A stretch of 64,000 nucleotides of DNA from Stentor roeselii (Eukaryota > Ciliophora > Heterotrichea > Heterotrichida > Stentoridae), in the NCBI GenBank assembly GCA_006503475.1, contig RSEH01000063.1:1-64000 (forward strand), written 5' to 3'. This document shows, piece after piece, positions 1-35,971 of the stretch. The first letter of the stretch is position 1; each line of letters opens with the position of its first letter. The translations under genes were made by a program, and so were the position numbers. The notes under the pieces are model-generated. The model ran no database searches, was not told where the DNA came from, and saw nothing but the letters and a program-made list of their open reading frames with translations.

Positions 1-3000
1 GTTCTTTTGATAATATTTTCCATCGCGATTTTAAGTTTTAGAGTGGTGTTTGCATCTTGGAAGTTCTTCTTGTCTATTTCTTGGGAGTATTTAACCCATC
101 TTAAAACAGCAGACTTAGGTTTTCTCAAAATGTTTGAAATAGCTCTCTTGATAAGTCCAGCAGTTTTATCACCATCTCCAATAATTCGATTTACTGCATC
201 TTTGAGTGTTCTTTTAGGAACTCTGTTGAGAGAATTGAGAAGTTTTTGAGATTTGACATTATCAATCAAGTCTTCATTTTTGATCATGACAACAACTTTG
301 TTCCAATACAAAAAGTTTCTTCTTGTTGTCGAGATAATAAAGTTGAAGATTCTTGTAAGTGCATTTTTGATTCTATCATCCTTATTCAGTAAAGAGTTAA
401 GAGTACTTCTCATAACTTTTCTTGGAAGATTAAGGAACCCGATAATCAACTTATAACCTCTAATTTCTCCGAACATCCTTGCAGTCTTTCCATGAATATC
501 TTTGAAAGTCGACATCAAAGTCCTCATCGGAATACGAGATAAGTTATTTCTAAGTTTTTGACTCTTAATAATAGTCAGCATGTTTCTCGTCTTAGTCGCT
601 CGGATGAAGTCTCGCCAGATAAAGAAAGATTGTTTTGAGACTTTATCAAGAGCCATGAAAATAACTTTCAAAGCTCCAATAGCTTTAGAGCCTCCTCCCA
701 TAATCCTATTGTAAGAATCTTTACTAGTCCTCAGTGGAATTCGTGTCAAGTTGAATTTGAGCTTCTGTGAGCGCACGTTGTCGAACATTGATCGATTTTT
801 GCAAGCCTGGACAAACTTCCGCCATTTATCCATCGCGTCTTTTGGACGTTTTTTGATGTTATGCAAAATGCTCTTCATTGCGCCTTTCAATTTATCACCT
901 TCGCCGACTATTCTTTGGAACGAGTCTCTTAAAGTTCGTGATGGGATTCTTGAAAGTAAGTTTTTCAGTTTCTGGCTTTTAACATTGTCTAATAAGTTCT
1001 TTGCATCTACATTTCTTGAGTATTTGATCCATTGTGCTATTGCGTTTTTAAGTTTGTTGCGGAAATTATGTAATAGACTGCTCAGGGCACCTTTAATTTT
1101 ACTTCCATCACCTAATACTCTTTGTGATGCATCTTTCAATGTTCTTCTAGGTATTCTCTCTAAGTTATTTCTCAGTTTTTCGGCTCGAGTATTATCAAGT
1201 TGTTTCTTCAGTTTAACATCATCAATGAATATCTTCCATTTATTGAAAGCATAATTATTTTTTCTCTTCAAATTCGCAACTATTAACTTAATTGCTCCTT
1301 TCACTTTACCTCCTTCTCCTACGATTCTCTGAGTCGAGTCTCTCATTGATCGAACTGGAATACGTGAAAGATGATTCAAAAGTTTTTGAGACCGAACATT
1401 GTCCATGATTTGTTTCTTATCACAAGCTTCTTTGAAAACTTTCCATAAGTTGAAGGCTGGCCTTGGCTTGTTTTTGATTGTATATAGAATCGATTTTAGA
1501 GCTCCTTTTACTTTGTTTCCATCTCCTAAAATTCTTTCTTTGGCATCTTTTACTACTCGTCGAGGGATTCTTTCCATGCAGTTCTTAAGTTTTTGAGACT
1601 TGAGATTGTCCATCAGTTTCTTTGATTTGATGTCGAAAACAAACTGCTTCCATCTGTCATTTGCTTCTTTTACTCTTTTATCAATTTTTGCAATCAAAGA
1701 CAAAATTGTTGCTTTCAAAACGTTTCCGTCTCCGATAATTCTTCTTATTGAGTCTCTGCATGTACGGTTCGGAATTTTGTTGAACAAGTTGTTCAGTTTT
1801 TGTGATTTCACGTTATCCATCAGTTTCTTGCTCTTCACATCGTTCACATACTGTTTCCAAAGTCTTAAAGCATCTTTAGGTCGTTTTTTCAAGTTTGCAA
1901 GTAAACTGGCAAGTGCTCCTTTCAGTTTGCTTCCATCTCCTACAATTCTTTGAGCAGCGTCTCTCATAACTCTTTTCGGTATTCCTCCTAAAGCGTTTTT
2001 CAGTTTTTCGCTTCTTACATTATCCAGCAGTTTTTTATTTTTGATATCATCAATAGCTTTCTTCCATTGGTTAATTGCCAGTTTCGGTTTTTTTCTCAGG
2101 TTTTCAATCAAGTTATTCAAAGCTCCTTTGATGACGTCTCCAGCTCCTAAAATTCTTCTTTCAGCGCCTCTCATTGTTCTTTTGATAATATTTTCCATCG
2201 CGATTTTAAGTTTTAGAGTGGTGTTTGCATCTTGGAAGTTCTTCTTGTCTATTTCTTGGGAGTATTTAACCCATCTTAAAACAGCAGACTTAGGTTTTCT
2301 CAAAATGTTTGAAATAGCTCTCTTGATAAGTCCAGCAGTTTTATCACCATCTCCAATAATTCGATTGAGTGCATCTTTGAGTGTTCTTTTAGGAACTCTG
2401 TTGAGAGAATTGAGAAGTTTTTGAGATTTGACATTATCAATCAAGTTTTCATTTTTGATCATGACAACAACTTTGTTCCAATACAAAAAGTTTCTTCTTG
2501 TTGTCGAGATAATAAAGTTGAAGATTCTTGTAAGTGCATTTTTGACCCTTTCATCCTTATTCAGTAAAGAGTTGAGAGTACTTCTCATAACTTTTCTTGG
2601 AAGATTAAGGAAACCGATAATGAGCTTGTAACCTCTAATTTCTCCGGCTAGCATTGCAGTCTTTCCGTGAACATCTTTGAAAGTAGACCTCAAAGTCCTT
2701 ACCGGAATGCGTGATAAGTTATTTTTGAGTTTTTGAGACTTGAGGTTATCCATAAGTTTTTTAGATTTTATATCAATCACGAACTGCTTCCATCTGTCAT
2801 TGGCCTCCCTGAGTCTTTTTTCTACTTTTGAGATGAGAGCGATAATTGTTGCTTTCAAAACGTTTCCGTCTCCGATAATTCTTCTTATTGAGTCTCTGCA
2901 TGTGCGGTTTGGAATTCTGTTGAATAAGTTGTTCAGTTTTTGTGACTTAACGTTATCCATCAGTTTTTTGCTCTTCACATCGTTCACATACTGTTTCCAA

Positions 3001-5400
3001 AGTCTTAAAGCATCTTTAGGTCGTTTTTTTAAGTTCGCAAGCAAACTGGCAAGCGCTCCTTTCAGTTTGCTTCCATCTCCTACAATTCTTTGAGCAGCGT
3101 CTCTCATAACTCTTTTCGGTATTCCTCCTAAAGCGTTTTTCAGTTTTTCGCTTCTTACATTATCCAGAAGTTTTTTATTTTTCATATCATCAATAGCATC
3201 CTTCCATTTTTTTATTGCCAATTTCGGTTTTCTTCTCAGATTTTCAATCAAGTTATTCAAAGCTCCTTTGATGACGTCTCCAGCTCCTAAAATTCTTCTT
3301 TCAGCGCCTCTCATAGTTCTTTTGATGATGCTTTCCATTGCGATTTTTAGCTTAAGACTTGTGTTTGCATCATGGAAGTTCTTCTTGTCTATTTCTTGGG
3401 AGTATTTAACCCATCTTAAAACAGCAGACTTAGGTTTTCTCAAGATGTTTGAAATAGCTCTCTTGATAATTCCCGCGGATTTATCACCATCTCCAATAAT
3501 TCGATTGAGTGCATCTTTGAGAGTTCTTTTAGGAACTCTGTTGAGAGAATTGAGAAGTTTTTGAGATTTGACATTATCAATCAAGTTTTCATTTTTGATC
3601 ATGACAACAACTTTGTTCCAATACAAAAAGTTTCTTCTTGTTGTCGAGGTAATAAAGTTGAAAATTCTTGTAAGTGCATTTTTGATTCTTTCATCCTTAT
3701 TCAGTAAAGAGTTGAGAGTACTTCTCATAACTTTTCTTGGAAGATTAATGAAGCCGATGATCAACTTGTAACCTCTAATTTCTCCGAACATCCTTGCAGT
3801 CTTTCCATGAATATCTTTGAAAGTCGACATCAAAGTTCTTACCGGAATGCGTGATAAGTTATTTTTGAGTTTTTGAGACTTGAGGTTATCCATAAGTTTT
3901 TTAGATTTTATATCAATCACGAACTGTTTCCATCTGTCATTGGCTTCTTTAAGTCTTTTTTCTACTTTCGAAATGAGAGCGATGATTGTAGCTTTCAAAA
4001 TATTTCCGTCTCCTATTATTCTTCTAAGCGAATCCCGGACTGTTCGATTTGGAAGTCTGTTGAATAAGTTGTTTAATTTTTGAGATCTTACATTGTCAAT
4101 GAGTTTCTTGTTTTTAATGTCGTTTACATACTGCTTCCAAAGCTTTAGTGCTTCCCTTGGCCTTTTTTTCAAGTTAGCAAGTAAACTAGCAAGTGCTCCT
4201 TTAAGTTTACTACCATCTCCAACAACTCTTTGAGTAGCATCTCTCAAGACCCGTTTAGGAATTCCTCCAAGAGCATTTTTAAGTTTTTCACTTCTGACAT
4301 TATCCAAAAGTTTTTTATTTTTCATATCCTCAATAGCTTTTCTCCATTTATGAATAGCATCTTTAGGTGTCTTCTTTAATTTCTCAATCAAACTATTAAT
4401 CGCTCCCTTAATAACATCTCCAGCTCCAACAATTCTTCTATCAGCATCCCTCAAAGTCCTCTTCACAATATTTTCCAAAGCCATCTTAAGTTTTAACTGA
4501 GTATTTGCATTAAGCAAGGACTTTTTCTCAATTTCCTGAGAATACTTCATCCATTTCATCATCGCCCACTTGAGTTTATTAGCAAGTCTCATTAAAGTCC
4601 TTTTGATAAGTCCATGAGCTTTATTCCCATCGCCAATGATTCTATCAACTGCATCTTTCAAAGTCATTTTCGGGACTCTATTTAAAGACCCTTCCATTTT
4701 AGTAGTTCTATGACCATCAAACAATTTCTTTTCCTTGACATCTCTAAGATAATCTTTCCACCTCAAGAAATAAATCTGAGTCTTTTTTTCCAATAAGTGA
4801 AAAACTCTCATAATCATCCTGGTGCCATGATCATGAGTTCCAACAGTCCGAGTAAAAGTCTCCCTCAAAGCTTTTCTCTGAATCGGAAGCAAAAGCATCA
4901 TAATTTTAGTCCCGTAGTTCATTCCAGATTTTTTCTCATCATGAACCATTCTCTTGAAAGACTCTGATAAAGTCTTAGCAGGAAGTCTGCTTAAACTAAT
5001 GAAAAGTTTGTTAGAAGTCAAGTTATTCTTCAGTTCCTTCTGCCTGGCGAGTTCAAGAAAAGTCTTCCACTTAAGAAAAGCTCTTTTGTACCCGTTGCTT
5101 ATTGCCAGGAACAGCATTTTTAGTTTACCAGCGACAAGACTGTCATTTCCAGTGACTCTTCCCAACATGTCTTTAGATGTTCTGACAGGGACTCGCTTTA
5201 AAGCAGAGTTGAGTTTATGTGACCTGGCAACGTCGAATAAAGATTTATTGTCACAGTCATCAGCGAATTTCAGCCATTTGTTCAGAGCTCGAGTTGGACG
5301 TTTTTTGATGTTGTGCAGAATTGAGTTGAGTGCGCCTTTGATGCGGTTTCCACCGCCCATGATGTTGTGAATGGTTGTTTTTAAGGACCTGTTCATTACT
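1..5400 (-). repeat. Array of 69-codon (207-bp) tandem repeats inside the giant gene
   Basis: About 25 units by spacing. Most Trp-to-Trp distances that I counted are 69 residues. One recurrent irregular unit is 104 residues (69+35), that is, one extra half-repeat. The array is in frame throughout. The left boundary lies outside the window; the right boundary is gradual because the first units are diverged. Confidence 0.9.
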
Positions 5401-7859
5401 TTTTTAATGAGTAAACCGAGTCTTCCTGCCCTGGAGCCTTCGAGGTACCGAGTAGATCTTAAGAGAAGAGTTTGTCTTACCCACTTCGTCGTTGTGATTT
5501 TTTTCAGTTTCTTTGAAATCATGTCAAAAGTTTTTTTGATTGCAGTGGCCCTGGTCTGACTTTTAAAAACACAAGACTTGGCGGATGACATGGTTCTTTT
5601 AGTTATTCTTTCAAGAAGCGCTCCTAAGTTGAATGATCGAGGACGGTTCAAGATCTCCTTTTGTTTACTACCGAGAGTAAACATCCACCATAAGTAAAAA
5701 GCGTCTTTTGCAGATGAAGAAGATTTAAAACAAAAAAGCATTTTTTTCAAACTTCCTGAGACTATCTCGTCTCTTTTAAGAAGACGATCTCGAGCAGCGT
5801 CTAGTCCGTTAAAAGCCAATTTTCTCAAGCCCTGTGCCAGGAGTTCAACTCTTAATCGTCTTACTTGCCTGGCTTGTTTTTGAATTTCGACCCAGGTTTT
5901 CCACAGGTAAACTGAATGTCTTTGTTTAGCCACGAGACTTGATATCAGCATTCTAAGCATCAGCTTGATTTTACTGTTTGGCAATAATGATAGCAATGCA
6001 TTCGCCTGCTTGGTTTTGATAAGTTTCGAGAGAATATTCCCGATTCTTAGAGTTCTGAAAGACTCGTAATAAGCTTTTTTCTTCATACTTTCGACAAGTT
6101 TTTTCCATCTTTGGAATAAATCGTTTTGTTGGTTTTGGATCCGGTCGAACATTCTTAGGACGTAAAATGTGAGTCGTTGAGTCTTTCCTTGTTTCTTGTT
6201 GGAGATTAATAAAGTTTTCCAGAGGCTGTAAGACTGTCTTAGTTTTTCGATGTAAACTTTAGAGATGTTTGCCCAGACTGTATTTACAAGCATCTTACGT
6301 GTCTTGTTCTTCATAGCATTGACTACTACTAATCGGTACCTTGCACGGTAGAGACGGTTTAGAGCTGTGAATGTATTTCTAAGAGCGATTGAAATAGCGA
6401 CCTTTTTATCTCCCGTTAAAGATTTTTTCCAATTGTTAAAAGGTTTTCTAAGTGGATTCATGATTGTGAATAAAATTAAAAGAACACTTCGTCGTTTTAA
6501 TGAAGATTTGACCATTAGTTTGTAGAATTTCCATTTTTGAATCGCTTCTTTAATCACACTTTTTTTTATTTTTACTATATCTTTAAGAGCTTTTGTGATT
6601 ATTTGGTCTGCATCTTTAATAATGCGAGGAGGGTGGAAGATTCGTCTACCTCTAACGCAAAGGAGTTGGTTAAGAATGTTAACCATTTTGAAAAGTTTCG
6701 GAGATTCATTCTTTTTGTTATCTTTCCAGGTGGTGAAGTAGACTAAAAAGTGCATCTTTGGGTACTTAGCTAAATTTTTCAGGAGATATTCTTTGATTTT
6801 CTTATTCTTCTTAGCAGAGATCACATTTTTATGCCAATTCGCAAGCATCTTAGACATGGCCATGTTCAGCTGGTGTTTCAAGCTCTTAAATGCTTTTTCT
6901 AAAGCTTCATGTTTGACATTAGGTCTTTCATCGATTTTAAATGCATCTTTAGTGTCAAAAGCAAGTCCATTACTAAGAGCTTTCATAAGTTTTTCCACCT
7001 TTTTCAATGAGTCTTGTTGGTTGTTGACCTCTGCTACATGCTTCCATTTAAGCCAGTTTTCTTGTTGTCTTGACTTGTAATACCTGAGGACACTTCTTAA
7101 GATGCTCTTTACATACTTTTCCTTCTCAGCCTTAACAGGGTCTTTCGGAATAGAGTCCAGCTGGTGCTTAAGTAGTTTGTTTTTCCACTTCACGACCGCG
7201 ATTCTTTTACTATCAGCGAAAAGTCTAGCTTTATCAGCCAAAGTCTTGAAGTTAGAAAGGTCGACTTGATGAGAGGCTTCATGAGTGACTTCATGAGAAA
7301 CTTCCACTTTAGTCTTTTCCGTTTTTTTGAATTTTTCAACTACTTTTTCCTCGATATTCATTTTACGAAGAGACTCGAAATTTAGCAAATCAACAGTTTT
7401 TTGAAGTCGCATTCCTAAAGAACTTCTTAAAGAAGAAACAAGTCTTGCGCAGTTTAGTCTTTTTACTTGTAACTTGTGATCTTCTTTGACCTTATGCAGA
7501 GATATAGAGTTGAATGCAAAATAGGTCTGACATTGCGATTTCAAATGGATTTTCGCCAGAGCTTGACATAAAAGAGAGGCTTTTTGCCCGTTGTTGACGA
7601 CTGGAAGGTGAGTCATTGGAAGGCCTGCTGCTCTTTTGATGTTTTTCAAGTAGAGTTTGAAGGTTTCCAGGTCTGACTGGGCCAGATGCGACTGGGATGC
7701 CAGGTCTTCTGCTACTTTCACGGCCTCATTTAGAGAAGCTTGGGCTGCGGATTTTAAGTTCGAATGCAGCGAGTCTAATTTTTCTTTGAATGCTGAACGG
7801 TCTGCAGGGAGTCCTGACAGAACCTCTGACACCAGAGAGCTCAAGGTTGAACTATCCAT
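1..7859 (-). CDS. Giant 69-residue tandem-repeat protein (candidate Sfi1/GSBP-like centrin- or spasmin-binding myoneme backbone), 3' end outside window
   Basis: One reading frame runs from ATG at 7859 to the window edge without a stop (at least 2619 codons). Residues 1 to about 800 are non-repetitive, basic and helical, with Trp-Lys pairs spaced roughly 60-70 residues. The rest is a tandem array with a 69-residue period: the Trp codons at 1857-1859 and 1650-1652 are exactly 207 nt apart. Each unit has a Trp half (pattern KGAL..LL.N.KKRPKDAL..WK) and a second half (LDNVKSQKL..L..RIP.RT.RDA..RI.GDG). The halves resemble each other, so the unit is a doubled helix of about 34-35 residues, close to Sfi1 centrin-binding repeats. 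From memory, giant spasmin-binding proteins of Spirostomum have similar tandem repeats. Centrin/spasmin binding is therefore inferred, not shown. No enzymatic domain is visible. The frame is certain; the function is moderately supported. Confidence 0.9.
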   Translation of the reverse strand, partial: MDSSTLSSLVSEVLSGLPADRSAFKEKLDSLHSNLKSAAQASLNEAVKVAEDLASQSHLAQSDLETFKLYLKNIKRAAGLPMTHLPVVNNGQKASLLCQALAKIHLKSQCQTYFAFNSISLHKVKEDHKLQVKRLNCARLVSSLRSSLGMRLQKTVDLLNFESLRKMNIEEKVVEKFKKTEKTKVEVSHEVTHEASHQVDLSNFKTLADKARLFADSKRIAVVKWKNKLLKHQLDSIPKDPVKAEKEKYVKSILRSVLRYYKSRQQENWLKWKHVAEVNNQQDSLKKVEKLMKALSNGLAFDTKDAFKIDERPNVKHEALEKAFKSLKHQLNMAMSKMLANWHKNVISAKKNKKIKEYLLKNLAKYPKMHFLVYFTTWKDNKKNESPKLFKMVNILNQLLCVRGRRIFHPPRIIKDADQIITKALKDIVKIKKSVIKEAIQKWKFYKLMVKSSLKRRSVLLILFTIMNPLRKPFNNWKKSLTGDKKVAISIALRNTFTALNRLYRARYRLVVVNAMKNKTRKMLVNTVWANISKVYIEKLRQSYSLWKTLLISNKKQGKTQRLTFYVLRMFDRIQNQQNDLFQRWKKLVESMKKKAYYESFRTLRIGNILSKLIKTKQANALLSLLPNSKIKLMLRMLISSLVAKQRHSVYLWKTWVEIQKQARQVRRLRVELLAQGLRKLAFNGLDAARDRLLKRDEIVSGSLKKMLFCFKSSSSAKDAFYLWWMFTLGSKQKEILNRPRSFNLGALLERITKRTMSSAKSCVFKSQTRATAIKKTFDMISKKLKKITTTKWVRQTLLLRSTRYLEGSRAGRLGLLIKKVMNRSLKTTIHNIMGGGNRIKGALNSILHNIKKRPTRALNKWLKFADDCDNKSLFDVARSHKLNSALKRVPVRTSKDMLGRVTGNDSLVAGKLKMLFLAISNGYKRAFLKWKTFLELARQKELKNNLTSNKLFISLSRLPAKTLSESFKRMVHDEKKSGMNYGTKIMMLLLPIQRKALRETFTRTVGTHDHGTRMIMRVFHLLEKKTQIYFLRWKDYLRDVKEKKLFDGHRTTKMEGSLNRVPKMTLKDAVDRIIGDGNKAHGLIKRTLMRLANKLKWAMMKWMKYSQEIEKKSLLNANTQLKLKMALENIVKRTLRDADRRIVGAGDVIKGAINSLIEKLKKTPKDAIHKWRKAIEDMKNKKLLDNVRSEKLKNALGGIPKRVLRDATQRVVGDGSKLKGALASLLANLKKRPREALKLWKQYVNDIKNKKLIDNVRSQKLNNLFNRLPNRTVRDSLRRIIGDGNILKATIIALISKVEKRLKEANDRWKQFVIDIKSKKLMDNLKSQKLKNNLSRIPVRTLMSTFKDIHGKTARMFGEIRGYKLIIGFINLPRKVMRSTLNSLLNKDERIKNALTRIFNFITSTTRRNFLYWNKVVVMIKNENLIDNVKSQKLLNSLNRVPKRTLKDALNRIIGDGDKSAGIIKRAISNILRKPKSAVLRWVKYSQEIDKKNFHDANTSLKLKIAMESIIKRTMRGAERRILGAGDVIKGALNNLIENLRRKPKLAIKKWKDAIDDMKNKKLLDNVRSEKLKNALGGIPKRVMRDAAQRIVGDGSKLKGALASLLANLKKRPKDALRLWKQYVNDVKSKKLMDNVKSQKLNNLFNRIPNRTCRDSIRRIIGDGNVLKATIIALISKVEKRLREANDRWKQFVIDIKSKKLMDNLKSQKLKNNLSRIPVRTLRSTFKDVHGKTAMLAGEIRGYKLIIGFLNLPRKVMRSTLNSLLNKDERVKNALTRIFNFIISTTRRNFLYWNKVVVMIKNENLIDNVKSQKLLNSLNRVPKRTLKDALNRIIGDGDKTAGLIKRAISNILRKPKSAVLRWVKYSQEIDKKNFQDANTTLKLKIAMENIIKRTMRGAERRILGAGDVIKGALNNLIENLRKKPKLAINQWKKAIDDIKNKKLLDNVRSEKLKNALGGIPKRVMRDAAQRIVGDGSKLKGALASLLANLKKRPKDALRLWKQYVNDVKSKKLMDNVKSQKLNNLFNKIPNRTCRDSIRRIIGDGNVLKATILSLIAKIDKRVKEANDRWKQFVFDIKSKKLMDNLKSQKLKNCMERIPRRVVKDAKERILGDGNKVKGALKSILYTIKNKPRPAFNLWKVFKEACDKKQIMDNVRSQKLLNHLSRIPVRSMRDSTQRIVGEGGKVKGAIKLIVANLKRKNNYAFNKWKIFIDDVKLKKQLDNTRAEKLRNNLERIPRRTLKDASQRVLGDGSKIKGALSSLLHNFRNKLKNAIAQWIKYSRNVDAKNLLDNVKSQKLKNLLSRIPSRTLRDSFQRIVGEGDKLKGAMKSILHNIKKRPKDAMDKWRKFVQACKNRSMFDNVRSQKLKFNLTRIPLRTSKDSYNRIMGGGSKAIGALKVIFMALDKVSKQSFFIWRDFIRATKTRNMLTIIKSQKLRNNLSRIPMRTLMSTFKDIHGKTARMFGEIRGYKLIIGFLNLPRKVMRSTLNSLLNKDDRIKNALTRIFNFIISTTRRNFLYWNKVVVMIKNEDLIDNVKSQKLLNSLNRVPKRTLKDAVNRIIGDGDKTAGLIKRAISNILRKPKSAVLRWVKYSQEIDKKNFQDANTTLKLKIAMENIIKR
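2176..4455 (-). repeat. Higher-order 1140-bp super-repeat (five 69-residue units plus one 35-residue half)
   Basis: Bases 2176-3315 and 3316-4455 begin two successive 1140-bp (380-codon) periods. The equivalent Trp codons lie at 2478, 3618 and 4758. The copies starting at 2176 and 3316 are nearly identical for long stretches, while the older one is visibly more diverged. Bases 1 to about 550 match 2176 to about 2725 with only a few differences, at an offset of 2175 bp (725 codons = ten units plus a half). This indicates recent in-frame segmental duplication or conversion. Confidence 0.85.
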
Positions 7860-8481
7860 TTATATTAACAGCCATTGGTTAATTCACTATGGTTAACGAT
7901 GTATTCAACTAAGCTGTGCGGGGACTATCGTTAAGTACTCGATTTGTAAGATTCATTATATAGACTAAGAAAATTTATATTTAAGTCAACTTTGTTCGTA
8001 AAAAAGGTTTTCGGTTTTTGCAGCTATTAGGTCAAGCATAGGGAAAATTTAAAAAGTGCTGGGTTATTCGTGAGAAAAGAAGATGATTCAAAGATTTTGT
8101 TATAGACTTAAAAGTTTATTTAAGTATTGGGACTATTTTGTAATAAGTTCAGAAATTCTAGAAAGGTGTATAGTTCAGGTATTTTAGAGTATGAGTGATT
8201 TTGAGAAAATTTGAAGATTGATACGCAATTATTCAAATCTAACTTAACCCTGAAAAAAGAGTCCAAAGCAGATGAATTTTATGATAAAATATTCCAAATC
8301 ACTTTCTAAAATTTTTCTCAACTAAGGTTAATAAAAAACTCATACTGAATAAAACTTAAAGCATTAACCTCAAATACCATTCCATATCTTCCACAACCCA
8401 CTAGATTAAAAGTTCTTTCTTCGACTAAAAATCCTTTTTCCTAGTTTTCCATTAAAAAAAAATAAACCCTCAACAATTAAC
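7860..8481. other. Intergenic, no gene seen (622 bp)
   Basis: AT-rich spacer between the giant gene's start and the 3' end of the histidine phosphatase gene. It contains only short chance frames, including a 34-codon plus frame at 8082. No tRNA-like or repeat structure was noticed. It should hold the giant gene's promoter; the bases before its ATG read ATATAAATG. Confidence 0.6.
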
Positions 8482-10969: not shown

Positions 10970-13834
10970 ATGCATAAAACCCCAACACAAAACCCTAAAC
11001 CTTGCGAACTATCTCCAAAAAACAAAAAACGTTTAAAAAAGTCAACAACCCGTTCAAGTAAATCGAAAGATCGACTGTCTAAACCTCTCGACAGCAGCGA
11101 AATTCGAGTGGTCCTCTCAAAAAGAGCTCCGACTAAAAAAGGTTCAATCGACCTTCAAAAGCAGTCAACTCCAAAAGCTTCTAAAAAGGTGAAAAAGAAA
11201 CTTTTTATTAACACCCAGCTTCCACTTAACCTGAATTCAGAAATCGAAAAGTCCTGCTCAAGATTTGATAAAGACCGGGCCCGTTCAAACCTGGAGTATT
11301 CGCTTAAGTCAAAGTTAAACTTATCACAAAAAGTTCTGCTTAACAAAAACACCAGTCCGAAGCGAGTTGAGCAAATAATTAAAAACTCTTTAAAAAAGGA
11401 CAGAAGGGATCGAATTATGAAGGAAAAAGAACTAAAACAGAAGAAATTGCAAGAAGAAATAAAAAAACTTGAAAATGACTATCAAAATAACTTGATTCGT
11501 AAAATCAATGGAAAAAAATATAAGAAAAAACTTTCACCTGATACAAGAAGTGCCACTGGAAGAGGAAAACTAGAAAAAGTTGTCAGGCTTATTAACAAGA
11601 AGATAAAATCAGGAAGGTCAGTTAGTTCTAGAAGAGTTCCGAAAGATTTACCCTCTGTTCGAAGCATCAGTGCTGAAAAAGATCGGGTTTCAAGGTTTTT
11701 TATTGATGACTTGTATGGAAATGTCGAGACTTGCAGAGAAAAAATTGTAAGTGACGCTGAAAGTCGCTGCGAACTTGTCAACTCCAGGACAGAAAAGGAA
11801 AAAGTTAGAAGAAATGTAAGTTTGATTGAAGAAGATGAGTCTTTCACCGTCTCTCCCACTGCCGAGCGCAATAAACTTCTTGCAATAAAAGAAAAAATCG
11901 ATTATAAAAAGTACCTGGTCGACAAGGAAAACCTGGAAGAAGAGCTTCAAAAGAAACTTAAAGAAAATCAAGAGTTTTTCAAGAAAGCCAAAGAAAAATC
12001 TGAAGAATTTCGACGAAAACGAGCAGCGAAAGTAATTCAAAAAAATCTTCTTAGATACGTGAAGGTGCTAAGGAAGGAAAAGCAAGAGTTAAAAGAAAGC
12101 AAATTGCAAGATTTCGTAAATGAACAGATCAGTTGGAGAGAAGCACAGCTTCTTAGTCTTGAATATCTTCGAGAAAAAGAACTGCAGGATATGCAGTCTC
12201 TTGTAGAGCTTCTTGGGCAAAATCCACAATTAGAAGATCATCTTTTTAAAGTAGTGAATCATCGATATGAGCTTTTTACCCGACTTTTCAAGAATAACCT
12301 GGAAAATGCTGAACAAGAAATAATGCAAGACATGGACACTCGGCAGGTTCTTAATCTTTCTAATAAAATCAAAGACAAAAAAGATGAGATCAGCAAAATC
12401 ATCGAAGAAACTCAGATGAATAGCTCGGTTTCTAAGGAAGAGGTTAAAAATATGTTGAAAGATGTCAAAGATATTGTTAATTATGACTTGAACTCTATTT
12501 CTTGCCAGACTTCTATTGACCTTCAGGAAAGTAATAAAAAAAAAAATGGATTTGAACAAATTGATGCTTCAAATAGTTTGTTAAAGGATTTTATTTTAAG
12601 ACCGGAAATCATGGACAGGCTTGAACAGCTGGAAAAAGAAGAAAAAAGAGAAAAAAGAGAAAAAAACATTGAAAAGAAAGAAAATAACTTAAAAAAAGAA
12701 AAAAACATTGAAAAGAAAGAAAAAAACATTGAAAAGGAAGAAAAAAACATACAAGAAAAAAAAAATGATGAAACTCAAAAACCAGTAAAATTCTCAAAAA
12801 GTGGCCCAAAAATCCTAACAGAAATCGACGACACCCACATAAAATCAATATCAATAAACGAGATCCTTTTACTAGACTCTTCATTATTTTCGCCAACTCT
12901 CAGCCAAGTAGCAGAAGAAGACTCTCCAGAAAAATCTCCAGACCTAGAGCCTCCAAGTACCTCTCCAATCCCAGCCCGTCCATCAGCGCCTTTAATGTTT
13001 CTAGACACAGACGATTCAGGTCCTTTAGACTCAATGATCTCATTTTCCCTTCCAATGAATTTAACCCAATCATCTAAAAAGCCATCTCAAGTCCTTCCAC
13101 TTCTAAATCTAGGAAGTATCCAAGGAAGCATGTCAAGCATTCCAATAACATCCGACCCACGAATAGAGACAAGTCCTGAGTACATCCATCATTTTCTCTC
13201 AGAAGTCTTCAGCGGCTTGGACCTTTCCAGTCTTCGAGCCGAGCTAAGCCGAGGACTGTCAAGAGACCCTTTAAAAGAACTCAGCAAAATCAGAGAACTT
13301 GATTTAGGCTTTCTAGAAAAAGAGCCTTTTAAACCTATTTTCAACATTCCTCAAATTATTGAAAGGTTCCAGGCAGAAGTCTCTGATGAAGTCACTTCTC
13401 AAAGACTTGTCAATCAAGCTGATAAGATTCATAAAGTCATGGTCTTGTCTGTCGCTGATGAAGTCATGCAAAGCTTTAGACCTTATGGAATTCAAGGAGT
13501 TCCTCTTATTTGGAGTCAGAAAATCAGGAAAATTAATCCGGTTCAAGTTGATTTAAAATTTGTGATCAAGTCAACGATTGAGACTGTTGAAGAGTTTTCC
13601 AGATTTGAAATAGGAAAAATTCCGACTGAAGAAATGATTCAGAGCAACGGGAAAATCGATGAAGAACTTATTCAAGATATCAGAGAAGATGCTTTAGGAT
13701 TCGCTATTAAGAGAGAAATCATTGAATTTGATTGGGTTTGGACTGAATATGAGTTCGAAGAAACTCAGGTAAAACTTGACCTGGCCGATATGATTTTAGC
13801 TGATTTGGCTGAAGAGTTGCTCCAGTGTAGCTAA
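10970..13834 (+). CDS. Large basic coiled-coil protein with IQ motif and DUF4378-like C-terminus (possible microtubule/centrosomal protein)
   Basis: 954 residues from ATG 10970. The first 230 residues are Lys/Ser-rich and disordered. Residues about 325-400 form a charged helix with an IQ-like site (AAKVIQKNLLRYVK). Around residues 550-600 there is a Lys/Glu minisatellite. A Pro/Ser-rich linker follows, then a folded C-terminal region of about 200 residues ending W.EYEFEE....LD.ADMI..DL.EELL. That ending resembles the C-terminal DUF4378 helix of CEP350/TRM-type proteins, which act at centrosomes or cortical microtubules. The resemblance is by pattern only. The stop lies 20 bp before the next gene's ATG. 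Confidence 0.85.
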   Translation: MHKTPTQNPKPCELSPKNKKRLKKSTTRSSKSKDRLSKPLDSSEIRVVLSKRAPTKKGSIDLQKQSTPKASKKVKKKLFINTQLPLNLNSEIEKSCSRFDKDRARSNLEYSLKSKLNLSQKVLLNKNTSPKRVEQIIKNSLKKDRRDRIMKEKELKQKKLQEEIKKLENDYQNNLIRKINGKKYKKKLSPDTRSATGRGKLEKVVRLINKKIKSGRSVSSRRVPKDLPSVRSISAEKDRVSRFFIDDLYGNVETCREKIVSDAESRCELVNSRTEKEKVRRNVSLIEEDESFTVSPTAERNKLLAIKEKIDYKKYLVDKENLEEELQKKLKENQEFFKKAKEKSEEFRRKRAAKVIQKNLLRYVKVLRKEKQELKESKLQDFVNEQISWREAQLLSLEYLREKELQDMQSLVELLGQNPQLEDHLFKVVNHRYELFTRLFKNNLENAEQEIMQDMDTRQVLNLSNKIKDKKDEISKIIEETQMNSSVSKEEVKNMLKDVKDIVNYDLNSISCQTSIDLQESNKKKNGFEQIDASNSLLKDFILRPEIMDRLEQLEKEEKREKREKNIEKKENNLKKEKNIEKKEKNIEKEEKNIQEKKNDETQKPVKFSKSGPKILTEIDDTHIKSISINEILLLDSSLFSPTLSQVAEEDSPEKSPDLEPPSTSPIPARPSAPLMFLDTDDSGPLDSMISFSLPMNLTQSSKKPSQVLPLLNLGSIQGSMSSIPITSDPRIETSPEYIHHFLSEVFSGLDLSSLRAELSRGLSRDPLKELSKIRELDLGFLEKEPFKPIFNIPQIIERFQAEVSDEVTSQRLVNQADKIHKVMVLSVADEVMQSFRPYGIQGVPLIWSQKIRKINPVQVDLKFVIKSTIETVEEFSRFEIGKIPTEEMIQSNGKIDEELIQDIREDALGFAIKREIIEFDWVWTEYEFEETQVKLDLADMILADLAEELLQCS
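12631..12755 (+). repeat. Coding Lys/Glu minisatellite
   Basis: Imperfect tandem copies of a purine-rich unit containing AACATTGAAAAGAAAGAA, read as NIEKKEK. The array is in frame within the 954-residue protein and encodes a charged single-helix-like stretch. Copy number is likely variable. Confidence 0.8.
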
Positions 13835-15197: not shown

Positions 15198-18100
15198 TTA
15201 ACTTTTCTTCCCTCCATTAAAAACCGTATCAATTTTCCACTGATCCTTGCAACACGCAATCGCAAACAATTTTTTTTCATCTTTCGCGACACAAAACGCA
15301 TTAAATTTTTGCCCTTCATCCAAAAAAACAGTCCCTTCAAGAACATCACAAAGTGCGAGGTTTTGTCCAAGTAAAGCAAAAATAAGATCTCCAAAAGCCG
15401 AGATTTCGAAAATATTTCCACATTGAAAGAGAACCTTTCCTATTTCTTTTCCATCAAATGAAAAGTAGCTGAACCCGGCATTTTGAAAGACAAGGAAAAA
15501 GCCGAGGTTGCTGATAATTAAAGGGCCTGGAGTGGTTTTCAGGCTTAGTAAATATTCAGCGTTTCTAGAGTCGTGAATCAAGATATTTCCCAGATCGTCG
15601 CAGGAAGCGACGATGTTTAAGATATCTGAGCAAGAAATGCTGAAAATGCGAGCTTTGTGACCTACAAATTGAAGATGCTTCGCCAGGTTGAATGACCAGC
15701 TGATTAAAACGTCGGAACCTGTCAGAAGCTTCTCGGATGGAAACATTGAAACCACTGGGGTCGGGTGGAAGCTTGTGATAAACTTCAAGTCGCCTTCGTA
15801 GTCAAAGTACTTCGTTGAACAGTCATCAAAACCTGAAGTCACTATGAAAGAATTCCAGATACATATTAAAAACTTGTAATATTCTCTCATTTTCACTAGT
15901 TTTAACTGAAACTCTCTTGCCTTTGAAAGTGTTTTACCCACCAGGTCAAATCTTAGGTACTTAACACCTTCAGAAACAACAAAAAACACGAAAAGAAATC
16001 GACTATCTGAAAGAATCTTTAAAAAATCCCCAGGTTTCTGTAAATTCATACTTTTCATGACCTTTCCATCACTTTTCCACAGTTCAAAAATAGAAGGACT
16101 AGGAAGTTCCTTCCTTTTAGGATGAGGTTCTTTAAAGATCTTTGCAGGTGTCTGTCCAAAATGATAAATCTGCTCAACAACCCACTTCAAATCACCAGGT
16201 TCAATGAACTTTACACTATTCTTATAAAACTCTTGATAAGTAATCGGATGAAACAAGTTACAAGCGGCTTCCGCAAGTTCCCCAGACTGTTTAAATCCAA
16301 AGACCAAATCAATCCACAAATGCAAATTCGCACTGCAATGACTTGACTCCAGACATTTCCTCATCTTTCTAACCAAGTCCCAAGAGCTACAAGCCCAATT
16401 TGGCAAAATGAAAACTGCAGAGTCCTTAGAAAATTTCGAATTATCTCCAAAGCTGAAATTATTCATATTTTCAAAGACCTGCGGCAGGTAAAACATTTCC
16501 GGAATTAATTCTTTTGTGTCCCCTGCCATGCTTTGAGAGCTTTCCCAGGCACTGTCAAGTGAATAGAAAAGACGGTCAGGGTGGTCGAAGAGGCCGCCTT
16601 GGAGAAGTTGATGTTGAGCTGCGAAGGGCTCGAGTCGGACCATGTAGTACAAAACGATTCCGCCGTTTGAGTAGTGCTGGCCGAAGTGGTACTTTTCTTT
16701 TACTTGTAAGGAAAGATTGTGCTTTAAGTCTGAACGCATTGAAGGCGACTGGGCGCCTATTGGGTAGTTGAAGTCTCGGTAAACTTTTGGGTCTTCTGGG
16801 TCCAGCGAGGCCTGGGAAAATGACGTCACCACCCAAGGGAACACCGGGTATTGCGACAGGTCGTGGAAAGAACGCCCTGAGTACTTGTTTAATAATAAAA
16901 GATACTCCATATTCGACATCTGACCAGTTATCCACTTTTCTTTGTAATGACTTAAAGGAACTTCTGATAAATTTCGCATGATTTTCACTTTTTCCCATTT
17001 TGATATAATTTGGAAGACTTTTTCTCTTTTTCGTTTTTTGAAAAGGTTTAAAAAAAAAGATTTTCCTGTTGTTAGGAAAATTTCTATTGCGGAGTTTTTG
17101 TGGATAAAACGACGGTAAAGGACTTCAGAGATCTGGTCCTTGTGGAAGACGTAATCGCATGTTTTTGATTTTATTGTGAATTGAAGAGCACTGCCTGGGT
17201 AGTCTGATGAATTTTTTGCTTCTCCTGAACATTTTAACTGGAAAAACTTGTCAGTGAAGACTGCCTGGCCCAAGAAACTTCCAGTGATTTTTATTTGCTC
17301 GCAAGGAAGTTTCAGGAATTTTAAAGAATTGTTTGAACGGATTTTTTTTGTTGGGGATTGAATCAGGGTGGAGGAGAAAAGACGGTTGTCGAGAGAACTT
17401 AGGTCGAAGTAACTGTTTCTTGAAGTTCTAAATAAAAATGAAGCTTTTGCATCAAATTTCATTTCTTTTTCAACTAGCTTTACTATTGTCCATCGGTTAT
17501 ACATGTCGTTTCGATTCTTGAGGAAATATTTTCCTTCTAAGATACTTTCAATTGCGTCGATTTTTCTATTTTGCTCTTTTTCGTGAAACTTGCTGATTGT
17601 TTTTAGATGAGCTCTTCTTAAACTCTGTTCGAGACTGAAGTCGTTGATATTGACTTTGTTGATAATTTCTTCAAATTTTTCTAAAATTTTTGAACTTTGC
17701 TCGATTTCAGGTTCTTTAAAAGATGCGGATTTTTCAATGACTTGATTTTTTTTCAAAGGGATCCAAATATTTTCGTATAAACAAAAATGTATGCAAAAAA
17801 TCCACTCTTGGGTAAAAATTTCAGTTGAAAGTTTATCTTCGTTTAGTTCTTTTAAGTACTGTTCTAGATTGATTGAATCACAGCTGAAAGATGATTGATT
17901 GAAAAAAGCTTTTGATTTTGAAGTGATTCTTTCATATCTCGAATCCTCTGGCAAGATATTTTTATTACTTTGGAAGAAACTCAATAATTTTTCCTTAATT
18001 TTCGCATTTTTCACAAATTCTGTGAAAAAATCCATAATTTTAAAATTTTTCTTGTAAAGACTTTCACAAAGTCCAGTAAATGTAAATAATCCAAGGCAAG

Positions 18101-21100
18101 ATTCATTAAAAACCTTTTTCTTCTGAGAGTTGTTGAAAAACTTGAAATAATTTGTTTTTTCAAAAAGCTGTTTTAAAGAATTCTGAATGTTTAAAGAAAA
18201 TCGAAAACACTTTAAAGAGATCTGAATGAAATTTTTTAAAAAGAACTTTGAACAAGGATGACTTGATTCATTTCCCGATGACTGAATATAAAAGAAAATC
18301 CCATCACTCGACACAAAATTCAAAAAAAACCCTAAAATCCCTGAAATTTTTTCACAATTATCTGCAGTTACCTTAAAATGTCTAAGAATTGCAAAATACT
18401 TCGCACAAACCTCAGGTTTTTTAAACTCTTTCTTCGCAGCAAAAACATTTAAAAGTCTAAAAAAAAGGTCTAAAGTTGCTGAATCTTTCAAGACTTCTCG
18501 AAAAAATTCATTAATTTTTTGTAGATCTGAGAAGGATTCAATTTGAGAAAAAATCAACTCAGCAAGAGTCAAAGCGAAAGAACTTGCTTTTTTATAAAAC
18601 TCGTTAAGCCAAAAAGGAAAAATATTTCTGTTGTAAATTGAATTTAGACAAATTTCTTTATTTTCTGTTAAAAAATTGAAAAGTTTCTGAAAAGTTGTAG
18701 AATTTGTGATGTACCAAGTTTTATAAAGAACTAGGTCTAAAAACAGTTGTTTTACCTCAGATTCAAATAAGGTAGTCTTCATTCCAAAGTGATTTAAACA
18801 TTCCAAAAGTGCATCAATCCCTGTGAACCTCTCTCGAAGGAAGTTCAAGGCTTCAACACTTCTATTATTCCCTTTTTTCAGGTCTTTTTTGAAGTTCGAG
18901 TTGATTTCTTTGTAAACAATTTTCATCAAACTGGCATGAAAAGACAAATTAAGAGGATGAAGAAACATCATTAAAAAAACAGTCAAAAAGTCTTCAGACT
19001 CTCCTTCAAAGTGACAGTTCTCTACAAGTAAAACAACAGATTCAATGAAAACAAATTCCTCAGCCTTAACAAGGACCTTCAAAATGTTGCAAATGGTTTT
19101 TCTATTCGAAAAGTCTTCCATAAAGTGTCTCAAAACGTATCGGATATGAACCTGGTCCATTCTTTGAAAAGCTCTTGCAAGTAACAAGAAGTATTTCGAG
19201 TCAGTTCTGAAAATTCTCTTAAAAATCGAAACCATTTTATCAGCTTCTTCCACTGAACTCGACCCTTCGAAGCAGTGAAGAGAAGGTTCGTTAAGGTAGT
19301 AATAAATGAACTTTCTTAGAAGTTGATCTGAATAAATACTTAAGATAAACCGAAGGTAGTTCTGTTTCAAGTCATGTGAAAGGGAAAATGATGTCGCTTT
19401 ACTTGTGATCAGCTCTGGAAAGTCATTAGCAACGATTTCTGAAACCTCGGGAAGACTGAAGAGAATTGAAAGGATGCCGAGGTACTCGATGAACTCTTCC
19501 ATTCCGTAAGATTTTAAACCGTCTAGTCCGCTGATGCACTTTAATGAGCTGTAGAGACTGTTTCCTTTACTTTTTGTTGTTGAGGACTGGAAAGATACGT
19601 TTGACATGTTTTGGATCAAGGGAGAATTGAACTCGCCTCCATAAAGAAAAACGAGGTCGTTTTTTATCTTGAGTAAAGAATGACTTTCTCTTTTTATTGA
19701 AATGTTCATCGGGTTGAATTTTATGTAGTTGCTTAGTTCTAAAATATCTGGTTCTTCAAGCGTTTTTTTGTAGATCTGGATGTGGGAAACTTTTCCTATG
19801 AATTTTAGAGACCTTTCGATAGTACTTCCTAAGGATAGGGTGAAAAAAGTGATATCTTTGGATTGCTTGAATTGAAGAGAACTGGAAAAACTTCTATCAT
19901 TAAGCTTCATGAAAATCACAGACTTTTTTTTTAAATTGCAAGAAATTGCTAAAAAGTTCCAGTTTTTATGAAGAATTTCAGTTTCTGAAGATATTTCACA
20001 GCTTTGAGAATTTGATGTAAATTCAACAAGTACTTTGCTCTTAGAGAGGCTGATAGAAAGTTTTAAGGTTTTGTTGTCTCCTATCTGGACCAATACGGAT
20101 TCAGATAATTTTTTGCTCGGCTTGAATCTGATGACAACAGAAATTTCTCCTTTACATGAAAAAAGCCCATCTTGTTGATTTATTTGAAATTGGCTTAGTT
20201 CATCAAAGTAGTCAAATTCTCGTATCAGGTTTTCCTGAGGATTTGTACTGTTCAGAGATTTTTTCAAGCAGGTTAACAGTCTTAGAATGAATCTGGACTT
20301 GGACCGGATGATCAGATCAGAAAATTTTTTAATGATTTTACATGAAATTTTGGTTTTGAAGCATTTTACAAGGATTCTTGAGTACAAAGGCCAGAACTCT
20401 TCAGTTATTTCAGATAAATGGAAAAAGATGACTTCTTCGATTTTTGAAACTTTTCGAAACTTGTGAGTGTTTAGCTTGAAACCATTCAGCAGTTCTTTTT
20501 TAACCTGTGAATTGAATTCAGAAAAAAAATGATATGAAATAAATTCAAGGATGATCCAAAAAAAGTCAAAATTTTGACTGTAGTGACTTTGTATGAATGG
20601 AAATGATTCTAAAATGACTGCTTCTTGAATAGGTTTAAATGAATCTTTTCTCAGTTTGAATACAAGGCTTTGCATATATTTCTTTTTTATTAGCATACTG
20701 GAAGATCGGTCGAAAAGATGCAAAAATCTGAAAATTTCGACCCAAAGATTTTTCATTAGCGTAAAATTTTCACTGAGAGTTTTCTGAAAATCTACGAAAA
20801 TCACAGTAAAAAGGTCTTGAAACAAGCTTTTTTCTAGCAATCTGATCTGGACATAAGGAGGAAAAGGTGTTCTTAATGTTTTAAGAATCTCTAGAATGAT
20901 GTTAGGATCTTTTTCCGCTGTTAAAAGACTAGAAAAATGATCAATTTGATCGAGTTGTCCAAGTTCAAGTCCAAAAGGTATAAAACAGAACAATTTTCTC
21001 CTAATTTCGAAATTTTTCCTTAAAATACTTCTTGTGCAAAGACTTACAATTTTTACCTTTCGAGCCCAGTTCTGAGCATTTTCCAATATTTCAAGAATAC

Positions 21101-21860
21101 AAGAAAAAACAACCTCTTCCTCTACAGGACTCAGTTCACCCACCTCCAGATAATCAGTAAAAACATCTAAAATATTACAACAAGCAAGCCCCAGCACGAT
21201 TTCTTCAAACCTTTGATTACAAATCTTTAAAAATTCATTGAAAAATGTCAGATCAGGACTGATTTTCAGGAATTCCTTTAATTTTATAATAATCTGACTA
21301 CAAATTTCTTCTGAATCGACCTTTAAAGTCACTTCTTCCCAAATAGCAAGCCATAAAGCGTCTTGAGTGAATGGGTGGCTGATGATTATTTTATTGAAAA
21401 TCAGAGGAATCAACAAAATTTCTCCTAAAGTCTCTTTATTATTTATGTACTTCTGGATGAACTGAAGAAATTGATAAGAATGTCGATATTCAAAGAAAGG
21501 TTGCTCGATTATTAGGAGTAAAAAAGAATGAATGAATAAGTCAGAGTCTTGATTTCCTGAAATTTTTTCAAACATTTTCAGCAACTTTTCAAGACTGCTG
21601 TCGAGAATTGAAAGATTTTGAGAGTCGACTAGAATTTGTTGAGATTTCATGAAAACTGATTTGATTAAGTCACTTTTATTTGACAAAAACAAGATAGAAG
21701 AGGGTAAGTTCGAATCCTCTGTTAAGATTTCTAAACATTCTTGAAATTCTAAGATTTCACTTAAATTCACTCCTTTTGAATCAAGATTTTTGTGGATTTC
21801 TCGAAGTCTTGTTTCAGTTTTCTTTAAAAACGATTCATGGTTGAACAGAGGCAGGTCCAT
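15198..21860 (-). CDS. BEACH-WD40 protein (neurobeachin/LYST/WDFY family)
   Basis: 2220 residues in one exon from ATG 21860. Order: an N-terminal helical-repeat region to about 550; a LamG/concanavalin-like domain at about 565-715 (GEISVVIRF, WNFLAISC, GKVSHIQIYKK); a further helical solenoid; a PH-like BEACH-associated domain near 1515-1610 (ITGSFLGQAVF); a BEACH domain from about 1630 to 1900 (SNMEYLLLLNKYSGRSF, YPVFPWV, YHFGQHYSN, LLQGG.FDHPDRLF, ELIPEMFYLP, DLVFG.KQ); and degenerate WD40 repeats to the end. This is the full canonical order. Family members act as scaffolds in vesicle fusion, lysosome-related organelles or autophagy. In ciliates secretory or vacuole traffic is plausible, but the branch is not resolved. 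Shadow frames inside were ignored. Confidence 0.95.
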   Translation of the reverse strand: MDLPLFNHESFLKKTETRLREIHKNLDSKGVNLSEILEFQECLEILTEDSNLPSSILFLSNKSDLIKSVFMKSQQILVDSQNLSILDSSLEKLLKMFEKISGNQDSDLFIHSFLLLIIEQPFFEYRHSYQFLQFIQKYINNKETLGEILLIPLIFNKIIISHPFTQDALWLAIWEEVTLKVDSEEICSQIIIKLKEFLKISPDLTFFNEFLKICNQRFEEIVLGLACCNILDVFTDYLEVGELSPVEEEVVFSCILEILENAQNWARKVKIVSLCTRSILRKNFEIRRKLFCFIPFGLELGQLDQIDHFSSLLTAEKDPNIILEILKTLRTPFPPYVQIRLLEKSLFQDLFTVIFVDFQKTLSENFTLMKNLWVEIFRFLHLFDRSSSMLIKKKYMQSLVFKLRKDSFKPIQEAVILESFPFIQSHYSQNFDFFWIILEFISYHFFSEFNSQVKKELLNGFKLNTHKFRKVSKIEEVIFFHLSEITEEFWPLYSRILVKCFKTKISCKIIKKFSDLIIRSKSRFILRLLTCLKKSLNSTNPQENLIREFDYFDELSQFQINQQDGLFSCKGEISVVIRFKPSKKLSESVLVQIGDNKTLKLSISLSKSKVLVEFTSNSQSCEISSETEILHKNWNFLAISCNLKKKSVIFMKLNDRSFSSSLQFKQSKDITFFTLSLGSTIERSLKFIGKVSHIQIYKKTLEEPDILELSNYIKFNPMNISIKRESHSLLKIKNDLVFLYGGEFNSPLIQNMSNVSFQSSTTKSKGNSLYSSLKCISGLDGLKSYGMEEFIEYLGILSILFSLPEVSEIVANDFPELITSKATSFSLSHDLKQNYLRFILSIYSDQLLRKFIYYYLNEPSLHCFEGSSSVEEADKMVSIFKRIFRTDSKYFLLLARAFQRMDQVHIRYVLRHFMEDFSNRKTICNILKVLVKAEEFVFIESVVLLVENCHFEGESEDFLTVFLMMFLHPLNLSFHASLMKIVYKEINSNFKKDLKKGNNRSVEALNFLRERFTGIDALLECLNHFGMKTTLFESEVKQLFLDLVLYKTWYITNSTTFQKLFNFLTENKEICLNSIYNRNIFPFWLNEFYKKASSFALTLAELIFSQIESFSDLQKINEFFREVLKDSATLDLFFRLLNVFAAKKEFKKPEVCAKYFAILRHFKVTADNCEKISGILGFFLNFVSSDGIFFYIQSSGNESSHPCSKFFLKNFIQISLKCFRFSLNIQNSLKQLFEKTNYFKFFNNSQKKKVFNESCLGLFTFTGLCESLYKKNFKIMDFFTEFVKNAKIKEKLLSFFQSNKNILPEDSRYERITSKSKAFFNQSSFSCDSINLEQYLKELNEDKLSTEIFTQEWIFCIHFCLYENIWIPLKKNQVIEKSASFKEPEIEQSSKILEKFEEIINKVNINDFSLEQSLRRAHLKTISKFHEKEQNRKIDAIESILEGKYFLKNRNDMYNRWTIVKLVEKEMKFDAKASFLFRTSRNSYFDLSSLDNRLFSSTLIQSPTKKIRSNNSLKFLKLPCEQIKITGSFLGQAVFTDKFFQLKCSGEAKNSSDYPGSALQFTIKSKTCDYVFHKDQISEVLYRRFIHKNSAIEIFLTTGKSFFLNLFKKRKREKVFQIISKWEKVKIMRNLSEVPLSHYKEKWITGQMSNMEYLLLLNKYSGRSFHDLSQYPVFPWVVTSFSQASLDPEDPKVYRDFNYPIGAQSPSMRSDLKHNLSLQVKEKYHFGQHYSNGGIVLYYMVRLEPFAAQHQLLQGGLFDHPDRLFYSLDSAWESSQSMAGDTKELIPEMFYLPQVFENMNNFSFGDNSKFSKDSAVFILPNWACSSWDLVRKMRKCLESSHCSANLHLWIDLVFGFKQSGELAEAACNLFHPITYQEFYKNSVKFIEPGDLKWVVEQIYHFGQTPAKIFKEPHPKRKELPSPSIFELWKSDGKVMKSMNLQKPGDFLKILSDSRFLFVFFVVSEGVKYLRFDLVGKTLSKAREFQLKLVKMREYYKFLICIWNSFIVTSGFDDCSTKYFDYEGDLKFITSFHPTPVVSMFPSEKLLTGSDVLISWSFNLAKHLQFVGHKARIFSISCSDILNIVASCDDLGNILIHDSRNAEYLLSLKTTPGPLIISNLGFFLVFQNAGFSYFSFDGKEIGKVLFQCGNIFEISAFGDLIFALLGQNLALCDVLEGTVFLDEGQKFNAFCVAKDEKKLFAIACCKDQWKIDTVFNGGKKS

Positions 21861-22012
21861 TAATATAAGTGAAAGATAGAAAAGTTTTAAGTTTTAACCT
21901 TATTATATAATCAATAAAAATTATCCCAATCTCGCCATAATCTTCTTCTTTAAACTCGTTAAATCCTCGTTGGGCAGGTAGTTTATTTTATTAAATCCTT
22001 ATACTATATCAA

Positions 22013-34959: not shown

Positions 34960-35075
34960 ATAAGATTTTTTTTTGATTTTTTTAGGGTTTTTGAGGATTT
35001 TTTAGGGTTTTTTAAGGTTTTTCAGGATTTTTTAGGGTTTTTGAGGATTTCGTGGAATTTTTGGGGTTTTAGTTT
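34960..35075. repeat. Imperfect T-rich/AGGG tract
   Basis: Repeated blocks such as TTTTTTAGGG, TTTTTGAGGATT and TTTTTCAGGATT in an almost C-free stretch upstream of the MORN gene. On that gene's coding strand it is an A/C-rich 5' flank. It is not a clean telomere array. Confidence 0.6.
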
Positions 35076-35330: not shown

Positions 35331-35971
35331 ATAATTATTAATAAATGTCAAAACAAATCATCAAAAGCAATTCTAAATTTCAAAGAATTTTTTTTCAATG
35401 ATTCTTTTTTGGATTTAGAATGTTAAGTAGCTCTTGAAAAAGATGAGTTTTAAGACTAATGATTTTGAATTTTAACAATGATCAAGTGACTTTATTCAAA
35501 TTTCAAATCTATTAAAAGATATTTTTTCAAATTTTAATTCAAAATTTATTCAAATTTTCATAAAATCTCTATATTCAGTTCTCTTGTTGCGAAGTTGGAG
35601 AGATTAAGTTTTCCATCATTTTCAATTCAACAAATTTTGAAATTTTTCTATCATCATAAAACTCTTGATAGTTCACAGCTATTCTCTGACTTCTAATCAA
35701 ATCAAAACCTTAAAACCAAACCAAAAAAAAAAAAACCATCAAAAATCCAAGTTTTCCCTCAAAATATTTTAAAATTATCCAACACCCCAAAACCTCCAAA
35801 CCAAAAAAATCCAATTCCAACTTTTTCAAAATCCTCCAAAATTCATCCAGAATTAACCGAAATTAATCCTTTCTTCACTCAATCCTCCTACTATCCATTC
35901 CAATCACTGGCAATAAACCTCTCTTAAATCCATTAAACAACAAATTTGAGGAATAATATTAAACTTTTACA
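35331..35971. other. Intergenic divergent region, no gene (641 bp)
   Basis: AT-rich spacer between the NOP10 start and the CDPK start. The last 270 bp before the CDPK are strikingly A/C-rich and G-poor, with an A-run near 35728. No RNA gene noticed. Confidence 0.65.

Follow-up and report, generated by a model that had tools for sequence, protein, structure and literature searches.

A giant basic protein of 69-residue repeats as a candidate EF-hand scaffold of heterotrich contractile fibres

Heterotrich contraction, which is driven by Ca2+ and needs no ATP, is among the fastest cell movements. In Spirostomum, itself a heterotrich, the proteins GSBP1 and GSBP2, said to have been described by Zhang et al. 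in Sci Adv in 2023, reportedly form a giant repeat backbone loaded with spasmins, with a unit that may be comparable to the one described here. One published source names a Spirostomum scaffold (PMC13035854), and giant Sfi1-type scaffolds are described from protist myonemes (PMC12661445). A protein immunologically related to centrin has been reported in the myonemes of Stentor, whose full composition had, according to a 2021 account, yet to be identified (PMC8017755). A comparable case is PtCenBP1 of the infraciliary lattice of Paramecium, a scaffold in which centrin-binding motifs recur and which belongs to a ciliate network that contracts with Ca2+ (PMC6189993). PfSlp, a large Sfi1-like protein of Plasmodium, has no clear Sfi1 homology and was recognised by accumulated copies of [FLW]xxW[KR], which is used as a minimal centrin-binding motif (PMC10180636). 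Centrin targets have also been defined by the triad W1xxL4xxxL8, which occurs in both orientations (PMC8622359).

The stretch of DNA that we analysed, 64,000 nucleotides in length (the window), carries a minus-strand frame of 2619 stop-free codons whose ATG sits right behind a stop codon and which exits the left edge of the window (Table 1). The chance of so many stop-free codons at the base composition of the window is about 5e-82, and the longest stop-free stretch on the plus strand within 1..8200 has 179 codons. A sequence-only reading of this DNA had pointed to a frame of at least 2619 codons, hidden from a simple reading of the plus-strand frames, and was right on both counts. It had also described the product as basic and two-thirds tandem repeats; we found a net charge of +387 across the 2619 residues (pI 10.8) and a regular array that occupies 68% of them. 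The frame uses 40 TGG codons and contains no in-frame TGA.

Table 1. Features of the giant repeat-protein gene, with positions in the window and residues of the encoded protein.
Feature	Residues	Positions	Strand	Remarks
Whole open frame (2619 codons, ATG at 7859)		3..7859	-	3' end beyond window edge
N-terminal region	1-200	7260..7859	-	lacks W; no family match passes the cut-off
Irregular segment	201-832	5364..7259	-	15 W; eight partial unit-profile matches
Regular array	833-2619	3..5363	-	24 units scoring over 40 bits, each with one conserved W
Extra segment of about 35 residues	970-1004	4848..4952	-	spacing 103
Extra segment of about 35 residues	1349-1384	3708..3815	-	spacing 104
Extra segment of about 35 residues	1729-1764	2568..2675	-	spacing 104
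Extra segment of about 35 residues	2454-2489	393..500	-	spacing 104
Super-repeat copy 1	1073-1452	3504..4643	-	380 residues (5.5 units)
Super-repeat copy 2	1453-1832	2364..3503	-	
Super-repeat copy 3, partial	1833-2108	1536..2363	-	
Further copy, part, at window edge		1..561	-	DNA 95% and 94% identical to 2176-2736 and 3316-3876, respectively

The repetition is confirmed. Identity along the protein at a lag of 69 residues is 24.6%, compared with 7.6% in shuffled sequence (z 31), and every one of the 24 units found by a whole-protein profile search scores far above the best score obtained from 200 shuffled proteins (5.5 bits). Pairwise identity among the units has a median of 35% and ranges from 17 to 99%. 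When the unit profile was run against the 537 stop-free segments of all six frames of the window, no other carrier was detected (best other E-value, 0.048). Nineteen of the 23 spacings between units are exactly 69 residues, whereas the remaining four are 103, 104, 104 and 104, so that the exact period claimed for the repeat holds for most of the array and fails at four places, each of which accommodates roughly 35 additional residues. The claim of a single Trp per unit needs a similar adjustment: in all 24 units a W occupies a common profile column, give or take two residues, but one unit has a second W. That every unit has a W follows in part from the method, because the profile was seeded with 21 W-anchored 69-residue stretches, one of which (W1098) lay five residues out of register; the 24-unit set is the output of the later search.

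The same reading had divided the unit into two similar halves, and this was not confirmed. Ungapped comparison of the halves gave z values of 0.5 at offset 33 and -0.1 at offset 34. A gapped comparison scored 21.6, against a mean of 14.5 (sd 2.7, maximum 21.9) for 200 shuffles, and this likeness is doubtful because the reversed half scored as well (21.4). The extra pieces resembled the unit's second half weakly: the piece at residues 1349-1384 scored 2.6 bits, and the observed scores of the four pieces were reached by 7/270, 7/272, 11/265 and 41/239 shuffles, the first count being that of this piece. These counts come from 300 shuffles per target and take in the shuffles with a reported score; good scores against first-half targets were discounted, since those targets included the start of the second half. 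Upstream of the array, three of the eight partial matches in the irregular segment (from residues 412, 567 and 692) have E-values below 1e-3 and exceed the shuffled maximum of 5.5 bits. Scanning residues 1-832 for second-half cores yielded a single match above 0 bits (4.5 bits at residues 748-760; shuffles at most 3.5 in sum), indicating that the second half is not regularly recognisable there.

A higher layer of organisation, absent from the sequence-only reading, is superimposed on the units: blocks of 380 residues recur along the array, and the first two (1073-1452 and 1453-1832) are 83% identical. The repeat observation was real and slightly understated. The likeness of the DNA at the window edge to inner copies suggests that the array extends past the edge. 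Differences between super-repeat copies are, in the longer comparisons, concentrated at third positions, and NG86 estimates of dN/dS for four copy pairs were 0.127/1.18, 0.065/0.41, 0.047/0.33 and 0.172/2.56, or 0.11, 0.16, 0.14 and 0.07, the last of these (pair 1073/1833) being saturated at a dS of 2.6. Given these low ratios across all four pairs and the excess of third-position changes, the coding sequence is under purifying selection. That the gene is a repeat expansion or an assembly artefact with no working product is scarcely credible. Similar super-repeat copies, which are 78-95% identical in the four longest DNA self-matches, could be partly mis-assembled, but dN/dS values of 0.07-0.16, the third-position excess and the length of the stop-free frame speak against an artefact. 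With the stop-free probability given above, we rejected a chance frame or artefact on the same grounds.

To describe the unit we used alignment A1, 18 hand-picked W-anchored stretches lying between residues 1142 and 2453, which omits six of the 24 units. Read by the majority residue of each column, the unit has R-I-[VLI]-G-D-G from W-30 to W-25. Next comes an L/I/A pattern at W-18, -15, -14 and -11, positions that are hydrophobic in all 18, and then basic residues with P at W-7 (10/18; 11/24 among all units). Closer to the Trp are A at W-4 and a hydrophobic residue at W-3 (15/18 each), and beyond it F/Y at W+3 and I/V at W+7 (13/18 each). After W+7 the order is L-x-D-N, S-Q-K-L and R-I-P-x-R-T, whereupon R-I begins again.

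The residues around the Trp correspond to the triad of centrin-target motifs in general (XPC, Sfi1, Kar1, Sac3), here in the W1-4-8 direction. If A and C are admitted as hydrophobic, 23 of the 24 units have such residues at W+3 and W+7 alike; under a strict set (F, L, I, V, M, Y, W) W+3 qualifies in 21 and W+7 in 19, and the pattern W-xx-hydrophobic-xxx-hydrophobic occurs 21 times in the whole protein against a shuffled mean of 4.1 and maximum of 11, although any amphipathic helix also yields hydrophobic positions around a W. The opposite, Sfi1-type orientation L8xxxL4xxW1 was not enriched: W-3 is hydrophobic in 21 of 24 units, W-7 together with W-3 in three alone, and the protein as a whole holds seven such triads, where shuffles average 4.0 and reach 12 at most. 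By comparison, [FLW]xxW[KR], the minimal motif, accumulates in the protein, with 12 occurrences against a mean of 1.5 and a maximum of 6 in 1000 shuffles. Eight of these occurrences fall inside the regular array, and none of the other 42 stop-free segments of at least 150 residues in the window has more than one.

This W core is where the protein resembles an Sfi1-type target; to call the repeats close to those of Sfi1, as had been proposed, is too strong as a statement about sequence. The strict Sfi1 consensus Ax7LLx3F/Lx2W(K/R) has no match in the 2619 residues, and a relaxed form matches once, at residue 326. Among PDB chains, the unit profile found no Sfi1 chain at E-values up to 10, the best hits (0.063 and 0.22) being non-significant, and when scored directly on yeast and human Sfi1 fragments it aligned W on W at 1.2 and 1.6 bits. 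We also scored W-centred stretches on Sfi1 in five tests of four different W, one yeast W being used twice with shorter and longer flanks. For W-5 to W+4, shuffles equalled or exceeded the observed score in 3.2%, 3.0%, 12%, 38% and 40% of cases, where 3.2% (shorter flanks) and 12% (longer flanks) concern the same yeast W; for W-8 to W+7 the figures were 5.0%, 1.8%, 15%, 81% and 74%. The likenesses to yeast and human Sfi1 are the W core with its hydrophobic W-3 and a half period of 34.5 residues, near the 33-residue period of yeast Sfi1 (PMC5112337). The differences are several. Where Sfi1 has LL, at W-8/-7, this protein has K/R and P and carries its hydrophobic pair further upstream, at W-15/-14; its units have one conserved W per 69 residues; its triad runs 1-4-8 rather than 8-4-1; and P and G-D-G breaks, as judged from the sequence and a weak model, would interrupt what in Sfi1 is a continuous helix. 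The evidence is of the same grade as the sequence evidence for PfSlp, for which co-precipitation with centrin is also reported (PMC10180636); the giant protein for its part sets the W core in a regular 69-residue array.

Searches of Pfam and of PDB sequences and profiles assigned the giant protein to no coherent family. Pfam returned nothing above its cut-off, and this silence is uninformative on Sfi1 because a true yeast Sfi1 fragment was missed as well. The best whole-protein E-values (1.8e-4, 4.5e-4 and 0.0011) fell below the cut-off and belonged to unrelated families; we took them to be repeat-driven noise. The IQ motif IQxxxRGxxxR had no strict or relaxed match in the protein, nor did Pfam detect an IQ motif there. 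No relatives turned up in prokaryote genomes or viral contigs, as expected for a ciliate gene, and a literature phrase search for a 69-residue repeat found no report.

We then considered the genomic surroundings, for which the Pfam search covered all 19 stop-free frames of at least 300 codons in the window and shorter frames were scanned with an EF-hand pattern. Long frames are connected by six putative GT..AG introns of 15 nt, each with A at position 10. One of them, 31657-31671 (-), links the kinase exons 30559-31656 and 31672-31914, whose pieces match positions 2-65 and 67-262 of the Pkinase profile. A scan of intron lengths from 11 to 40 gave counts of 0 to 6, with 6 also at length 24 and 5 at 12; length 15 thus hardly stands out by number, and the argument for a heterotrich is carried by the A10 common to all six and by the join within the kinase gene. 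Introns of Stentor coeruleus are 15-16 nt long, 91% of them being 15-nt introns with a branch-point A at position 10, and this species uses the standard code (PMC9505925). In Blepharisma, where introns of this kind also occur, UGA is translated as W (PMC9942806). At 35963-37471 (+) and 54209-55720 (-) lie two kinases of the calcium-dependent protein kinase type that bear EF hands at the C-terminus, and their frames stop at TGA and TAG, 5 to 10 residues past the last EF-hand match. The window is consistent with a standard-code heterotrich. These two kinases were also the only matches to the EF-hand loop pattern among the 537 stop-free segments of at least 40 residues, and no centrin-type gene was found in the window; the EF-hand partner of the giant protein, if there is one, would be encoded outside it.

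Several other features were recorded in the window. A BEACH-domain protein is encoded by a single frame of 2231 codons at 15198-21893 (-), and an 873-codon frame at 48812-51433 (+) matches the profiles of Giardia variant-surface proteins and of growth-factor receptors (GF_recep_IV). Long stop-free frames at 43448-46444 (-) and 46300-48060 (+) overlap on opposite strands by about 145 bases; the former has a Pfam IQ motif and, near its start, a 12-base repeat in eight copies (46166-46261). A 975-codon frame containing A-rich tandem repeats (12633-12773) had no family match at E-values up to 0.001, and a 1347-codon frame at 58426-62469 (-) had no Pfam match at E-values up to 1. A degenerate TTTTTTAGGG tandem array occupies 34978-35070.

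Structure prediction was of limited use. An AlphaFold model of five units (345 residues, 8 rows) had a mean pLDDT of 38.7, too poor for use, while a model of two units (138 residues, 10 rows) reached 60.3 and was all-helical. Its helices are interrupted close to the P at W-7, close to G-D-G and beyond W+8, while one passes through I-P at W+28/29, where the sequence alone suggests a break. A structural search with the two-unit model retrieved nothing below an E-value of 2.7 from the PDB and nothing below 0.65 from viral models.

Taking these results together, we lean, with moderate confidence and as the best single reading, towards the giant protein being a scaffold for EF-hand proteins (centrin/spasmin) in cortical contractile fibres. 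The proposal of a contractile scaffold draws support from a standard-code heterotrich genome, the enriched W motif and the giant basic repeats, while the part of it that appealed to sequence closeness to Sfi1 is not supported. Such a scaffold would most likely be Sfi1-like in action rather than by demonstrated membership of the Sfi1 family, and what links it to known backbones of this kind is a short sequence motif. In each 69-residue unit, the sequence A-[F/L/I]-x-x-W-K-x-[F/Y]-[V/I]-x-x-[I/V] would form a short amphipathic helix, and its side chains at W, W+3 and W+7 may dock in the hydrophobic C-lobe pocket of an EF-hand protein of the centrin or spasmin type. Predicted helix breaks, which might act as hinges, fall at a K/R-rich stretch that has P at W-7, at G-D-G (W-27 to W-25) and in K-rich sequence after about W+9; they would make the chain a row of hinged helices and not a single straight rod. 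Located in the myonemes, such a chain could collapse or re-pack when Ca2+ entry alters the grip of the bound EF-hand proteins, so that the cortical fibres would shorten without ATP, and removal of Ca2+ would re-extend it.

The same W-centred evidence for EF-hand binding is equally compatible with a scaffold that binds centrin and does not contract, such as a basal-body or cortical-lattice protein resembling the Sfi1-repeat (SFR) proteins of Tetrahymena. This organism, which has 13 SFR proteins, provides a precedent in Sfr1, a protein of basal bodies (PMC5112337), but Sfr1 has three repeats, and an array of at least 24 regular units that seemingly continues would suit a long fibre better; we consider a non-contractile role rather unlikely. 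The Trp might alternatively be a core residue of a self-contained alpha-solenoid (TPR/HAT/ARM-like) to which no EF-hand protein binds. The pattern of helix breaks, extra pieces of about half a unit and the all-helical model are in keeping with a solenoid, as is the P at W-7. Some 34-residue solenoid repeats carry P seven residues before a W. Against this, if weakly, Pfam gave no TPR, HAT, ARM or HEAT match at E-values up to 10 in a search run without a positive control, and the structural search of the PDB was equally unproductive. Solenoids usually model well, whereas the confidence of our models was low, and we judge a solenoid to be quite unlikely. Improbable, in our view, is some other basic helical fibre protein unrelated to centrin targets or solenoids, for instance one that binds microtubules or membranes: the net charge of +387 and the want of a family match above cut-off would accord with it, but binding by charge would not need a W with hydrophobic W+3 and W+7 kept in 23 of 24 units.

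If the protein does serve as an EF-hand scaffold of contractile fibres, it may even exemplify a second design for such scaffolds, although we put this forward tentatively and regard it as doubtful. In this design, W1-4-8 sites would lie between P and G-D-G breaks along a hinged chain organised in super-repeats of 380 residues (5.5 units), a titin-like hierarchy, and Ca2+ would collapse the hinges with no shortening of a continuous Sfi1 helix. Since the 69-residue unit is defined, short fragments of the protein can be cloned, and the grip of the unit on centrin or spasmin with and without Ca2+ is directly testable.
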